Assembly (NCBI RefSeq): GCF_902779965.1
Contig: NZ_CACZDK010000008.1
Coordinates: 1-64,000 of the forward strand
Direction: 5' to 3'
DNA length: 64,000 nucleotides
From: Fibrobacter succinogenes
GTDB lineage: Bacteria; Fibrobacterota; Fibrobacteria; Fibrobacterales; Fibrobacteraceae
Shown here: piece by piece, positions 10,186 to 56,677 of the stretch
Position numbering within the stretch: position 1 is the first letter of the stretch
Layout: each line of letters begins with the position of its first letter
The notes under the pieces: generated by a model
What the model was told of the DNA's origin: nothing
Seen by the model: only the letters and a program-made list of their open reading frames with translations
The model's database searches: none
Program-made: the position numbers and the translations under genes

Positions 10186-10258
10186 GTGCCTTTGAGCTCG
10201 CTTCGCTTGGACTGTTCTAATTACAATAAGCTCATACCCCATACCTCATACCCCTGTT
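10186..10258. repeat. Intergenic frame-and-hairpin repeat (CATACCTCA family)
   Basis: The segment holds GCCTTTGAGCTCGCTTCGCTTGG and CTCATACCCCATACCTCATACC, words that recur at 12136, 14240-14410, 31005, 41287 and 47060. It is not coding. Confidence 0.6.
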
Positions 10259-10307
10259 TACTAACCACTAACCACTGTCTACTTCCGACTTCCTACTTCC
10301 TACTTTT
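10259..10307. repeat. Degenerate heptanucleotide tandem repeat
   Basis: Consecutive 7-mers CTAACCA, CTAACCA, CTGTCTA, CTTCCGA, CTTCCTA, CTTCCTA follow the pattern CTnnnnA. Similar arrays lie upstream of maf, uvrD and gatC. Confidence 0.75.
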
Positions 10308-16394: not shown

Positions 16395-17702
16395 TCACAA
16401 AAACATCACAAAGTACACTGGAAGGTACAGTGTATTTCTCTTTTGGACAATATCAGGGCTGTTTGAAAGTACAATTCCCATTTGAACGTTGCCTGTTTTT
16501 TGCAAATTGTTGAGTGCGCTGTGGATGGTGAAATCTCGTCCTGACTTGACTTCAATAGGAACTGCCGTTAGAGCATCATAATTGTCGATTAAAAAATCAA
16601 CTTCACCTTTTAGACGGTTGTCGTAGTAATACAGTTTTTTCCCGTGGGCGTTCAATTCGCTCGCAACAACGGTTTCGTAAATGGCACCTAGGTTTATGCT
16701 AGGAATATCGCTCATCACGGCGTTGATGTTGTTGCCGTAAAGAATACCTGTCAAAATACCTACATCGTTGAGGTAAAGCTTTAATAAATTCTTTGTGGTG
16801 GATTGAACTAATGGAAATTTGATGTCTGTAATCGCTGAAACTTCTAGTGCGACGCCCGCGTTGGTCAGGTATTCAAATTCGTCCTCGTATTTATCGAGTT
16901 TGACTTTTTTAGATTCAATTTTGTTGGCGATAATCCGCTTTTTCTTGTTTTCCATCATTGATGGAATAAGATCGTAAATTTTGCGGATTTTCAATTTGTT
17001 CTTGTTATCGTATTTGCTTGCGTCTGCGGCGTAAAAGTTGCGAATATCGTCTTGGATCTTGCGAATTTTGACGATGTTTTTCTCTTGAATAAACATGTTT
17101 ACTGCATCAGGCATCCCCCCGACTAGCAGGAATTTTTTGAACAGATCCATGACTTTTTCATGCATGGCTCCGTCCAAACTTTGCTTGTTCAAAAATCTGT
17201 TTTTTAAGCCTTGGATGGCAAATTCGTTGAATCCATTCGCAAGCAGGAATTCTTCGAAATCCAGCGGATACATGTGTACCGTTTCGATGCTTCCTATGGG
17301 AATGGATGATGTTTTTGATAAGGCTACTCCGAGGAGAGAACCGCTGGCGATGTATGTAAAACGATCTTCTTGTTTTAAAAATTTGAGCAATGTTAGTAAG
17401 CGTGGGCATTCTTGGATTTCGTCTAAGAAAATTAGTGTATTTTCTTTGTTTCCCATTTTATCGCCCGCGAACATGCTAAGGCGCAGATAGAAATCTTCGG
17501 TATTTTGAATGTCTGCAAAAAGGCGCTTGTTGAGTGAATCTTCTAGAAGGTTCAGCTCTATGTAGTTCTGAAAATGTTTTTGCCCCATATAGCGAATGAT
17601 GTACGACTTTCCTATTTGACGGGCGCCATCGATAACCAGCACCTTGTTGGAGCCGTTGGTGAAGTATTCATCGATTCGTTCCTGTATTTTCCGGTAAAGC
17701 AT
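16395..17702 (-). CDS. AAA ATPase with C-terminal DUF4143/nuclease-like domain
   Basis: The 435-residue protein has Walker A DGARQIGKSY at about residues 25-34 and Walker B TLIFLDEIQECPR at about 90. The C-terminal third has the DUF4143 layout with GEVDFLID...PIEVKSGRD, a PD-(D/E)xK-like nuclease signature. Such ATPases are common, often multicopy, in gut anaerobes, and their role is unknown; links to mobile DNA or defence are only suggestions. AAAGG precedes the ATG. Its upstream region contains an array of 16-base repeats (17737-17883), which is a candidate control region. Confidence 0.88.
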   Translation of the reverse strand: MLYRKIQERIDEYFTNGSNKVLVIDGARQIGKSYIIRYMGQKHFQNYIELNLLEDSLNKRLFADIQNTEDFYLRLSMFAGDKMGNKENTLIFLDEIQECPRLLTLLKFLKQEDRFTYIASGSLLGVALSKTSSIPIGSIETVHMYPLDFEEFLLANGFNEFAIQGLKNRFLNKQSLDGAMHEKVMDLFKKFLLVGGMPDAVNMFIQEKNIVKIRKIQDDIRNFYAADASKYDNKNKLKIRKIYDLIPSMMENKKKRIIANKIESKKVKLDKYEDEFEYLTNAGVALEVSAITDIKFPLVQSTTKNLLKLYLNDVGILTGILYGNNINAVMSDIPSINLGAIYETVVASELNAHGKKLYYYDNRLKGEVDFLIDNYDALTAVPIEVKSGRDFTIHSALNNLQKTGNVQMGIVLSNSPDIVQKRNTLYLPVYFVMFL

Positions 17703-17736: not shown

Positions 17737-17883
17737 TGCTACTTTTTAATATGTTTTCTGTCTCTAAAATTACACTTTTCAATACAATTTTTCAATAGAA
17801 AATACTACTTTTCAATATAATTTTGACCATAAAATGCTACTTTTCAATATGTTTTAGCGCGTCTAAATGCTACTTTGCAATAT
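17737..17883 (-). promoter_or_regulatory. Iteron-like array of TGCTACTTTTCAATAT repeats
   Basis: Five imperfect copies of a 16-base word (minus strand ATATTGAAAAGTAGCA) plus a half copy end at 17752, 17785, 17798, 17818, 17850 and 17883. The spacing is 33, 13, 20, 32 and 33 bases, a period of about three helical turns with one extra half-unit. The array occupies the whole gap between recQ (ending 17904) and the ATPase start (17702). Confidence 0.7.
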
Positions 17884-17903
17884 TTTTGTGCATCGAATCT
17901 CGT

Positions 17904-19724
17904 TCACTGCTTCAAATATTCTTGGACTGCATCAACGAATCGTTGCCCGAACAATTCGATTTTCTTTTCGCCGAATCCGTAAATGTAGTGCAGATCGTCG
18001 ATGGATAGGGGAGGCGTTGAAACAATTTCTCTTAAGGTCTTGTCTGAAAGTACGACGTATGCGGGCCAGTTGTTTTCTTCTGCAATTTGCCTGCGCACTT
18101 TGCGTAGAACTTCAAATAAATCGTCGTTGGCATTGGGTTCTTCTACAAAACTTCTGCTACTGAATTTTTGTTTGTTTTTGGCTCTTGTGGAATGAGTGGC
18201 TTCAGATTCTTTTTCAACGGGAATGGCTAATTCGGCACGTTCTTTCCCGAATAGTACGGCGTTTCCGCTTGGCGTGATTTTTAAGTGGTTCCCTTCGTTG
18301 TAGGCTATTTCGATATACCCCAAATGCAGCATTTGCAAAAGGTAGTCGTGCCAGTGCTTTAGCGTGGTGCCTGCGCCGGCTCCGAATGTTTTGATTTTGT
18401 CATATCCGTTTTGCACAATCTCTTCGCTGCTAAAGCCTTTGAGGATTTGTGCGGTCATCGAAAAGCCTATTTTTTCATTTGTTCGCTTTATGGCCGAGAG
18501 CGCTTTTTGCACGAGGATAGTTCCGTTGAAGCGTTGGGGCGGTTTTCGGCAAATGTCGCAGTTCCCACAATTGCCGTTGCTGCTTTCGCCAAAGTAATTG
18601 AGCAAGATTCTACGGCGGCAAATCAGCGATTCGGCGTATTCCTGCATGCGATCGAGTTTTTCAGAATTGATTTCTTTTTGCCCGCTTTCGTTTACAAAAT
18701 TGCGCAGTGTGATGATGTCTTGGAAGTTGTAGAACAGTACGGTTTCTGAGGCGAGCCCATCGCGCCCTGCACGGCCAATTTCCTGATAAAAACTTTCTAT
18801 GCTCTTGGGGAGATTGTAGTGAATTACATAACGAACGTTGCTTTTGTCGATTCCCATGCCGAATGCGATTGTGGCGCAAACGACATCAATTTTATCGTTA
18901 ATAAAATCTTCTTGAACCGCGTTGCGTTCTTCGTTGGTCATTCCCGCATGGTATGCTCTAGCCAATATGCCTTTCCCGCATAATTCTTCGGCCACTTTTT
19001 CGGTGTTCTTTCGCGATAGGCAATAAACAATGCCTGAATCGCCTTTGTGCTTTGATATTATGGATAAAATAGCCTTTATTTTTTCTTGCCCCGAATAGCC
19101 GCGCTTTACATCGAGACTTAAATTCGGCCTGTCGAACGAACTGATAAAGACTTTATGTGAAATTAATCCGAGTTGGTTGATGATATCTTCTTTTGTCAGC
19201 TTGTCTGCTGTGGCTGTCAAAGCCATGATGGTGGCTTTGGGAAACTTTTGGTGCAAGCATCCAAGTTGCGTGTATTCTGGGCGAAAGTCGTGGCCCCATT
19301 GCGATATGCAGTGCGCTTCGTCGATGGCGAACAAGGGAATGTTTATCCGTTGCAACCATGGAATTTCTCTTTGCAGACGTTCCGGTGAAATGTAGAGAAT
19401 CTTCAATTCTCCAGATTGGGAACGTGTTCGGATATCGAAGTTTTCGTCTTCGGAATTGGTACTGTTAAGGGCTGCGGCCGCAATTCCGCTGGCGTTGAGC
19501 GCATCGACTTGGTCTTTCATTAACGAGATGAGTGGAGATATGACAACCGTTGTCCCTTCAAAAACCAATGCGGGGATTTGGTAGCAAAGCGACTTGCCGC
19601 CACCTGTGGGCATTAGTACGAGCGCGTCTTTCCGTGAAAGAATGTGGTTGATAATTTCTTCTTGTTGCGGTCGGAAAGAATTGTAGCCGAAAACGGATTT
19701 TAATATTTGGAGCGGAGTCTGCAT
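17904..19724 (-). CDS. recQ: ATP-dependent DNA helicase RecQ
   Basis: RecQ unwinds DNA 3' to 5' in recombinational repair. The 606-residue protein has MPTGGGKSLCYQIPAL (motif I), DEAHCISQWGHDFRPEY (motif II), QEIGRAGRDG (motif VI), the zinc-binding Cys set CRRRILLNYFGE...CGNCDIC, a winged-helix part and an HRDC domain from about residue 530 (FEVLRKVRRQIAEENNWPAYVVLSD). The start MQTPLQILKSVFGY matches the family; an upstream ATG at 19781 would add 19 unlikely residues. It lies upstream of the DUF4143 ATPase in the same direction, separated by the repeat array. Confidence 0.96.
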   Translation of the reverse strand: MQTPLQILKSVFGYNSFRPQQEEIINHILSRKDALVLMPTGGGKSLCYQIPALVFEGTTVVISPLISLMKDQVDALNASGIAAAALNSTNSEDENFDIRTRSQSGELKILYISPERLQREIPWLQRINIPLFAIDEAHCISQWGHDFRPEYTQLGCLHQKFPKATIMALTATADKLTKEDIINQLGLISHKVFISSFDRPNLSLDVKRGYSGQEKIKAILSIISKHKGDSGIVYCLSRKNTEKVAEELCGKGILARAYHAGMTNEERNAVQEDFINDKIDVVCATIAFGMGIDKSNVRYVIHYNLPKSIESFYQEIGRAGRDGLASETVLFYNFQDIITLRNFVNESGQKEINSEKLDRMQEYAESLICRRRILLNYFGESSNGNCGNCDICRKPPQRFNGTILVQKALSAIKRTNEKIGFSMTAQILKGFSSEEIVQNGYDKIKTFGAGAGTTLKHWHDYLLQMLHLGYIEIAYNEGNHLKITPSGNAVLFGKERAELAIPVEKESEATHSTRAKNKQKFSSRSFVEEPNANDDLFEVLRKVRRQIAEENNWPAYVVLSDKTLREIVSTPPLSIDDLHYIYGFGEKKIELFGQRFVDAVQEYLKQ

Positions 19725-19968
19725 TGGGTACTTTTGTATTTCATTTTTACAGAATTTAGATACATTTGTGCAGTGTGTCAAGCGGCTTGGTTGCTTGTTT
19801 ATATGGGCCTTGGGGGAGCTTGGTTTATGGATGTGTTCATTTTGTATAAAAATGTGTTGTTCACAACGGTTATTTTAGTAGCGATGATTTTTTTAGAATT
19901 TGCCTAATGTATGAATGTATTTTAGCAACGAGTTTGTTTTGGGGTGCTGTCGTGTAGAAGGAGGATTG

Positions 19969-42874: not shown

Positions 42875-42924
42875 TAAAAAATGAAAAATTAAAGATGAAA
42901 AATTAAAAATGAAATTTTTATTCT

Positions 42925-42970
42925 TAATTCATAAATCCTAATCACCAACCACTAACCACTAATCACTAAA
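42925..42970. repeat. Heptanucleotide array before gatC
   Basis: CTAATCA, CCAACCA, CTAACCA, CTAATCA, CTAAAAT in register with period 7, ending about 40 bp before gatC. Confidence 0.7.
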
Positions 42971-54747: not shown

Positions 54748-54778
54748 ACTTCCGACAGTCTACTGTCTACTTCCTACT
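54748..54778. repeat. Heptanucleotide array
   Basis: CCGACAG, TCTACTG, TCTACTT, CCTACTA in period 7, between two minus-strand genes. Confidence 0.6.
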
Positions 54779-55241
54779 AAGCTCTTGGGTATCTCAGTTT
54801 TTCGCCGGTAGCTTCGTCAATGTAGGGGTGCTTGCCTTCGCGGTACTTCTGGTTGATGACCAAGTTCTGGAGCCTTCTCTTGATGCCAGCTTCGGTCTTG
54901 CAGAAGAAGAACACGACTTTATTCGTTCCCGGCACCTGGAACACAGCGAGCTTGAACTTTTGCGAAACCGCGCGACGGAAAAATTTAACGTCTTCCTTTT
55001 TGGGAATCACCTGATCGCTGCCCGGCTTGATTTCGCAAATCATGTCGGCGTCGGCGAGCAATGCCTTGGACTTCTGCTGGAGGGCGAGGAAGTTCGGCTC
55101 GGTGCTCTTGCGGATGTTTTCCATGTTGAAGGGGCTTCTGGCCTTCAAACCTTTAAGGAATCCGCGGAGAACAAAGAATAAAAGAATGACCACGACCAGA
55201 ACAACAAGGTATGGCCAATAGTTTGCGAGAAAGTCTAACAT
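54777..55241 (-). CDS. Membrane-anchored soluble-domain protein, unknown function
   Basis: The 154-residue protein has an N-terminal membrane segment (YWPYLVVLVVVILLFFVLRGF) and a charged cytoplasmic domain with KSKALLADADMICEIKPGSDQVIPKKEDVKFFRR, FKLAVFQVPGTNKVVFFFCKTEAG and INQKYREGKHPYIDEATGEKLRYPRA. The pattern is faintly like DUF2726-type nuclease-related folds, but no catalytic set is clear. GAGGTGATT precedes ATG 55241. It lies upstream of hrpB in the same direction, 147 bp away, with repeats between. Confidence 0.7.
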   Translation of the reverse strand: MLDFLANYWPYLVVLVVVILLFFVLRGFLKGLKARSPFNMENIRKSTEPNFLALQQKSKALLADADMICEIKPGSDQVIPKKEDVKFFRRAVSQKFKLAVFQVPGTNKVVFFFCKTEAGIKRRLQNLVINQKYREGKHPYIDEATGEKLRYPRA

Positions 55242-55345
55242 AATCACCTCAGTTTAGTGAACCAAATATAACAATTTTTCAAAGTCCCGTTGAAATCGCT
55301 AAATAATCCCTTGTTTTTTCTATATTGGGGAGAGTGATAGATTTT

Positions 55346-56677
55346 ATGAAAATAATCGGTTTTGCTTTTTTGTTTTCTGCGGCGCTTGCTTTTGCGGGGC
55401 AGAATTCTGGTGATTCTGTTGCTGTTGGTTGTGCCAGCGGAGCAAAAATAGAATCCATTGATTTGGATGGGCTAAAGTACACAAAGCCGCATGTCGTATG
55501 GCGTGAACTCTCCCACAAGGTGGGTGGCGTTTTTTCGCAGGAAACTTTTGAAGCAGAAAAGCTTCGCTTGCAAGATCTCGACCTGTTTACCGAAATATCC
55601 GTTTCTTGCGACGTCGATTCTTTGACTTCGTTACACTCCGCTCCGAATGACACTCTCTCGTCTCTCGTCTCTCGTCTCTCGTCTAAATTAACCTACCACT
55701 TCAAGGAAATCTTCCGCTGGATACCTTCGCCAGATAGTAAAACGACCGATCGCGATGGGCTTATGCTTGGGCTTGCTCTTGCGAATCTGAATGTGCTTGG
55801 CGAAGACATTCGTGCCGAGGTGCATTACCGCACTGCGGTTGATCCGATTTTTGAAAAGAACGAGTACGCCTTTTATGCAAGTTCACCTTATTTGTTCGAT
55901 GTACCGCTAGGGTGGAATATTGATTTTACAAGAACGGACAGTTGGGATGATCTCCGTAAATTTAAGGATGCTTGTTGGCTACTTAGTTTAGATGTAAACT
56001 GGAAATTGATTCCCCATTTTTCAGTTCTCGGAAAAATTGTTTATCGCTATCTTGAAGGTGGTCCCGGATTCCTGCCAGAAATTGGAATTGGCGCAGCTGT
56101 TGATTATCGCGATAGCGAATTGGACAGCCGCAAGGGAATTTATTTTGAAACTGCAGTGACGCATGTGGGTATTGGCGGTTCGCGTGGTGAAAATTTTGTC
56201 GAATTTTTGGAAGATGCCCGTGCCTATTATTCGTTGGGCCGCTTTGTCACAGGAGCGACTGCTTTAGTTCGCTTACGTCCTGGTGATGTGAAGCTTTATG
56301 ATTATTTCTATCATGGTGGAACAAACTCTTTCCGTGGCCTTGATGGGCCGGATGCTCAGCACTTGGGCGTTCACGAAATGCTTTTGACGCTTGAAGAGCG
56401 TTTTGTGTTGCTGGATCGTCGCTCCGCCTCGCTATGGGGTGTCAACTTCTTTTACGGAATTCAGTTGGTGGCTGGCTTTGACGGTAGCGTGCTTTGGAAC
56501 AAAGGGGCGCCTGGCTGGAAAAATTACGAAGGAGCATTTTATGGCGGTCTCCATCTTGTAATCCCGGCGCTTGATCGAATCCGCTTTGAAGTCGGCTACA
56601 GCCCAGACAAAGGTGAGCCGAAGTTTACTTGGGGGATTTCGGGCAAAACGACGACGCAACGTTGGCGTGGACGCTGA
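55346..56677 (+). CDS. Omp85/BamA-type surface antigen with one POTRA domain
   Basis: The 443-residue protein has a signal peptide (MKIIGFAFLFSAALAFA), one POTRA-like domain (IESIDLDGLKYTKPHVVWRELSHKVGGVFSQETFEAEKLRLQDLDLFTEISVSCDV) and a 16-strand-type Omp85 barrel with the FRG-like loop YHGGTNSFRGLDGPD and a C-terminal strand. Members insert or move proteins or lipids at the outer membrane. Residues about 90-115 (SLTSLHSAPNDTLSSLVSRLSS) are encoded by repeat-like DNA including four CTCTCGT units, exactly at the POTRA-barrel linker. ATG 55346 was chosen; GTG 55334 is possible. Confidence 0.85.
   Translation: MKIIGFAFLFSAALAFAGQNSGDSVAVGCASGAKIESIDLDGLKYTKPHVVWRELSHKVGGVFSQETFEAEKLRLQDLDLFTEISVSCDVDSLTSLHSAPNDTLSSLVSRLSSKLTYHFKEIFRWIPSPDSKTTDRDGLMLGLALANLNVLGEDIRAEVHYRTAVDPIFEKNEYAFYASSPYLFDVPLGWNIDFTRTDSWDDLRKFKDACWLLSLDVNWKLIPHFSVLGKIVYRYLEGGPGFLPEIGIGAAVDYRDSELDSRKGIYFETAVTHVGIGGSRGENFVEFLEDARAYYSLGRFVTGATALVRLRPGDVKLYDYFYHGGTNSFRGLDGPDAQHLGVHEMLLTLEERFVLLDRRSASLWGVNFFYGIQLVAGFDGSVLWNKGAPGWKNYEGAFYGGLHLVIPALDRIRFEVGYSPDKGEPKFTWGISGKTTTQRWRGR
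55655..55682 (+). repeat. Perfect (CTCTCGT)4 heptamer tract inside the Omp85-type gene
   Basis: Four identical 7-bp units, 28 bp in all, followed by CTAAATT. Since 7 is not a multiple of 3, gain or loss of one unit shifts the reading frame. The same CTCTCGT word appears near 25760 (minus strand) and 53511. Confidence 0.9.

Follow-up and report, generated by a model that had tools for sequence, protein, structure and literature searches.

The window, i.e. the whole 64,000-nucleotide stretch of Fibrobacter succinogenes DNA analysed here, contains a gene for an Omp85-family outer-membrane protein in which four identical copies of the heptamer CTCTCGT follow one another (Table 1). This locus raises the question of whether the array is a phase-variation switch, as the preliminary description had proposed, or whether it arose and is kept in a different way. 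The four units do lie in coding sequence: Tandem Repeats Finder returned period 7, 4.4 copies and a 100% match, and the three copies of the doublet CTCTCGTCTCTCGT in the whole window are all within the array; the doublet was absent from 100 of 100 dinucleotide shuffles. The array encodes LSSLVSRLSS (residues 104–113), and with four units the 443-residue frame is open. In computed frames, two, three, five or six units led to a stop after 108–119 residues, and seven units opened the gene again. A switch is therefore possible in principle, and the frame arguments of the initial proposal, namely that the gene is in frame at four copies and that one unit more or fewer shifts the frame, are borne out. 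The unit itself (CTCTCGT/AGACGAG) is free of stop codons in every frame on both strands.

One POTRA domain (PF07244) and a C-terminal barrel (PF01103) were both detected above cut-off, assigning the protein to the Omp85 superfamily, and POTRA as well as barrel strands are present in an AlphaFold2 model of the 443-residue protein. The genome holds five Omp85-domain matches, the strongest of them in a 936-residue frame (C26). As that protein looks like the main, canonical BamA, the 443-residue protein is taken to be an accessory member. The AlphaFold2 model has a low mean pLDDT (59.7) and was used for topology only. It comprises β1 (residues 34–41), α1 (48–58), α2 (65–77), β2 (81–90) and β3 (112–121), with a short helix predicted at residues 104–109 in the loop between β2 and β3. 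The Pfam POTRA match of orthologs that have no array reaches profile position 77–78 of 79, through β3; in the window protein, it ends at position 62 of 79. Judged by this topology and these profile extents, the array lengthens the β2-β3 hairpin turn of the POTRA domain, and an insertion in the POTRA-barrel linker, where the array had originally been placed, was rejected. POTRA domains are periplasmic, and the array is thus not in itself a surface antigen.

Table 1. Positions in the window of the Omp85-family gene, its domains and array, and of intergenic heptamer arrays.
Feature	Position	Strand	Basis or remark
Intergenic chain CATACCC, CTAACCA, CTACTTC	10233..10305	+	15 bp before predicted start codon
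Intergenic arrays AAAAATG/AAAAATT and CTAACCA	42877..42969	+	Kept in relative G077
Intergenic array CTACTGT/CTACTTC (minus strand AGTAGGA/AGTAGAC)	54748..54778	+	Adjoins minus-strand gene 54777-55247
Single-POTRA Omp85-family outer-membrane protein gene, 443 aa	55346..56677	+	PF01103 5e-9, PF07244 2e-4; orthologs
POTRA domain, residues 34-121, beta1-alpha1-alpha2-beta2-[array loop]-beta3	55445..55708	+	AlphaFold2 topology; Pfam extents in orthologs
Heptamer array (CTCTCGT)4	55655-55682, within perfect period-7 run 55654-55684 (31 bp)	+	Tandem Repeats Finder, shuffles, AlphaFold2, computed frames
Omp85 beta-barrel, residues about 140-431	55763..56638	+	Pfam, AlphaFold2; conserved across orthologs

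Orthologs were surveyed in 80 Fibrobacter genomes, one per species and several of them metagenome bins, with counts that ignore kinship. The gene was found in 78 of these genomes. None of the ortholog matches listed for the 78 contained an internal stop, and no related genome among them was off frame by whole units. All 83 readable loops were in frame, at lengths ranging from about 13 to 157 residues. The window species shares the four-unit array length with L001, L002, L004 and L061; in L002, L004 and L061 the units carry substitutions at this constant length, indicating that the arrays erode through point mutations in their units and not through the loss of whole units. Differences in length between species at this site are multiples of 3, not of 7; thus, L001 and the array-free L003 differ by 27 bp. 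Pairwise dN/dS was about 0.13–0.47 in long loops, where dS is close to saturation, and 0.2–0.3 in short loops. On the evidence of these sequence comparisons, the codons of the loop region are under purifying selection.

The same loop is filled differently from species to species. The β2-β3 turn carries (CCTCGAG/A)n, (CCTCGCA)n, (AATTCCG)n or no array at all, and the Omp85 orthologs of most species lack the CTCTCGT insert. The alternative heptamers encode unrelated peptides, such as NSEFRIP and LEPRASN. They recur elsewhere in their genomes: AATTCCG doublets were found beyond the Omp85 locus in all five carrier genomes, with at least two doublets in 14 of 75 non-carrier genomes (counted by hand), and CCTCGAR occurs 13–68 times per genome in its three carriers. 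Parsimony on a tree of 70 barrel sequences gave 20 changes of array type, which should be read as a maximum, since in some genes the barrel and the N-terminal part seem to have recombined. In L086 compared with L100, L119, L120 and L122, and in L109 compared with L110, near-identical loops stand before barrels of different clades, a discordance that suggests recombination between the N-terminal part and the barrel. In some species, a 42-bp block (six heptamers, 14 residues, e.g. NTDSLSSLVSRLSS) has been duplicated in frame, giving rise to long tracts. Loops of about 150 residues, made of about six 14-residue repeats, occur in L005, L010, L078–L080 and L089; the DNA of these repeats has diverged and their peptide pattern persists. 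A heptamer origin of these repeats is likely.

CTCTCGT is a dispersed, genus-wide family. In this genome, 23 CTCTCGT doublets lie at 17 sites, and at 11 of the 17 they reside in frame inside predicted genes, so that one and the same repeat occupies several unrelated conserved genes. The window gene is one of the 11; eight further hosts were confirmed by Pfam (RsgA, a NUDIX protein, an HrpA-type helicase, a CbiX/NAD-binding protein, a pseudouridine synthase, ZnuA, LigA and ParB). Across 61 Fibrobacter genomes, CTCTCGT doublets were present in 47, with up to 184 per genome, and a reversed control pattern gave no hits in the same 61 genomes. As in the Omp85 protein, the repeat at a given loop changes between species in LigA (before the KIDG motif) and in GluQ-RS, in frame in every loop read. 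The short LigA orthologs L207 and L208 are free of the insert, as is the Omp85 protein of most species. In many Fibrobacter species, the LigA loop (L031, L199–L228) and the GluQ-RS loop (L229–L251) each hold a dispersed repeat of a different kind, and these repeats include non-heptamers, e.g. ones encoding LVILSESEG or WFDRLTNREG. A NUDIX hydrolase gene on the minus strand (L017:1074-1937) carries, after the NUDIX motif, a repeat-derived insert of about 100 aa, with its frame intact.

Heptamers of many other sequences are spread between genes. In 864 kb of the 4.09-Mb genome, sampled in stretches and with genes called by our own codon-usage script, we found 70 degenerate period-7 arrays, compared to none at period 8, three at period 6, five at period 9 and 0–5 at any other period from 4 to 10. 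Sixty-seven of the 70 were intergenic. Families include AGTAGGA, AGTAGAC, AGTGGTT, TTAGAAC, TAGTTAC and AGACGAG, and TAG or TAA lies within most of the intergenic families. Two of the six AGACGAG-type arrays and one ACTTCCG array were coding, as opposed to none of the remaining 63. Coding arrays in the sample are thus of the stop-free type, because most families contain TAG or TAA and CTCTCGT/AGACGAG is open in every frame. Genome-wide and cross-genome doublet counts agree with the earlier suggestion that the array belongs, as a member within a gene, to a heptamer system that spreads and also occupies the regions between genes. Its assignment to the same family as the intergenic arrays is correct for intergenic CTCTCGT elsewhere in the genome, but not for the window, in which the intergenic units (CATACCC, CTAACCA, CTACTTC, AAAAATG) differ.

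At orthologous intergenic sites, the heptamer family often differs between relatives about 89% identical, and some arrays are kept. The minus-strand gene adjoining the CTACTGT/CTACTTC array takes its TAG stop from it, and at the site of this array L001 has GTTACTA-type and L002 AGACTAG/AGACGAG units, amounting to three families in three species. Several arrays elsewhere in this genome also overlap stop codons. The chain of CATACCC, CTAACCA and CTACTTC units is represented in the relative G077 by TAGGTTA/CCTAACC-type units instead. Strand polarity was uniform, with the G-rich strand being the sense strand at 18 of 18 arrays up to 20 bp from stops and the antisense strand at 12 of 12 arrays up to 20 bp from starts. 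It therefore points away from the nearby edge of the gene at 30 of 30 arrays in this genome, as well as at 21 of 23 in relatives.

Based on these results, we suggest that (CTCTCGT)4 is probably an in-frame insertion of a dispersed heptanucleotide family with the G-rich strand AGACGAG, or a copy of it that grew in place; it is an in-frame array with nothing out of the ordinary, within a repeat system that is itself unusual. Heptamer repeats are found between genes throughout Fibrobacter, and stop-free ones also in tolerant protein loops. The array was probably retained because its unit is open in all frames and the overall length of the insert leaves the reading frame beyond it intact. After arrival, it would evolve as ordinary coding sequence, by substitutions and, in some species, by in-frame duplication of the 42-bp block. 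The insert would be close to neutral for the Omp85 protein. We infer that other sites of the genome were the source from which the arrays were copied, and that local growth alone did not produce them. Neither a target-site duplication nor an integrase was identified for the arrays, and insertion does not separate cleanly from local growth by slippage.

Microsatellites commonly grow by local slippage from near-duplicates, and such starting points may exist in array-free orthologs, as illustrated by the near-duplicate GAATTCTGAATT in L103. Purely local slippage, by which each species' heptamer would have grown from a chance 7-bp near-duplicate with no exchange within the genome, nevertheless seems unlikely to us, as one and the same heptamer turns up at numerous unrelated sites of a genome and period 7 exceeds all other periods from 4 to 10. 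In addition, the array type at the Omp85 locus is one that the host genome also has in its own repertoire, so that local slippage alone would be insufficient. A wider proposal is that an active Fibrobacter process appends heptamers of any sequence 3' at gene edges and loops, continually making in-frame protein loops; the repeat sequence would turn over, with only the 7-nt step and the polarity conserved, and the process would also underlie the heptamers of Xanthomonas and cyanobacteria. We consider this proposal improbable; the observed strand polarity would fit additions at the 3' ends of broken or stalled DNA. Ku-dependent end joining was rejected as an insertion route, with Ku present in none of the 61 genomes, and a chromosomal reverse transcriptase was rejected as the repeat maker, with RVT_1 present in only 17 of 61; one genome (G013) holds 179 CTCTCGT doublets and no RVT_1. 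DRT10 is known to make repeats, with 9-nt units (PMC12632851).

It is very unlikely that the insert is a selected structural module, with LSSLVSR and the 14-residue repeats serving as a functional POTRA spacer or helical tract and the DNA repeat being incidental. Purifying selection, the short predicted helix and the approximately six 14-residue units in the tract of several species would be in line with such a role, but the insert is absent from most species, unrelated peptides (NSEFRIP, LEPRASN) take its place, and the predicted models have low confidence in the loop. A phase-variation contingency locus as initially proposed, with slippage among three, four and five units turning the Omp85 protein off and on, has hardly any probability left, since, although a one-unit change would truncate the protein and Haemophilus influenzae hmwA is controlled by heptanucleotide repeats (PMC8262952), every array-bearing ortholog reads in frame, the array length stays fixed while units gain substitutions, length changes at the site (including that between L001 and L003) come in multiples of 3 rather than 7, the loop codons are under purifying selection, just four units are present here compared with 13–24 in hmwA promoter constructs and strains (PMC8262952), and random switching would be harmful in ligA, parB and rsgA, which carry the same repeat.

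Among known systems, the GGGNATC-type heptamers of Xanthomonas and Nostoc are 7-bp units that form G-quadruplexes and whose G-rich strand is sense just after stops and antisense just before starts, in any gene orientation (Rehm et al. 2015, PMC4692102). The Fibrobacter arrays resemble them in being 7-bp, mostly intergenic, often four units long, conserved in position between relatives and of the same polarity; by their period-7 excess, intergenic placement and G-rich strand reading away from the gene edge, they qualify as dispersed heptamers. However, AGACGAG, AGTAGAC, TTAGAAC and other Fibrobacter units lack GGG tracts, many families coexist in one genome, a given site holds different families in different species, and families without stop codons insert into coding genes in frame. 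A G-quadruplex function was rejected on account of the missing G tracts, which also make quadruplex formation unlikely as a general reason for the polarity.

The TAACTGA heptamers of Beggiatoaceae, cyanobacteria and Bacteroidetes (MacGregor 2015, PMC4679880) are likewise dispersed 7-bp direct repeats with stop codons within the unit, and their intragenic copies away from gene ends are stop-free in their orientation and mostly at tolerant positions. In that system one sequence dominates, mostly just upstream of starts, whereas Fibrobacter has many families with turnover and repeats inserted inside essential-type genes. Rickettsia palindromic elements (PMC10969869) are also dispersed, in frame in unrelated conserved genes and tolerated by the protein, and in this respect we read the CTCTCGT insertion as RPE-like. 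They are about 150 bp long with a conserved peptide, unlike the short Fibrobacter heptamer arrays of several unrelated sequences, of which the 31-bp direct repeat described here is one. Borg tandem repeats (PMC9879509) share fast evolution, intergenic as well as in-frame positions and the creation of new, often disordered protein stretches, but belong to giant linear archaeal extrachromosomal elements rather than to bacterial chromosomes, and the Fibrobacter units are 7 bp. The hmwA repeat (PMC8262952) has a 7-bp tandem unit as well, but lies in a promoter, has many more units and varies demonstrably. Fibrobacter heptamers were not described in any paper retrieved by a full-text literature search of incomplete coverage.

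Several unrelated bacterial groups have an excess of heptamer repeats. In Fibrobacter, with about 80 sequenced species, the family at a fixed site changes while the 7-bp period and the strand polarity stay. The origin of heptamers can thus be tested directly in this genus, owing to the site-by-site change of family and to coding sites at which no change may break the frame. In Fibrobacter, dispersed repeats seem to supply essential-type genes steadily with new protein loops, and the locus serves as a warning that not every 7-bp repeat in a coding region is a phase switch.

Two further kinds of repeat were observed. AGACGAA heptamers interrupted by a small hairpin were seen at L016:1430-1520, at L023:1490-1610 and at the G077 and G075 counterparts of C1:113618 in this genome; the hairpin arms in these composite elements are variable and their flanks constant (AACGG-stem-CCTACAG). 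Moreover, a 32-bp tandem repeat with 2.8 copies is located at 17799-17887 in the window, between genes 16395-17702 and 17904-19781.
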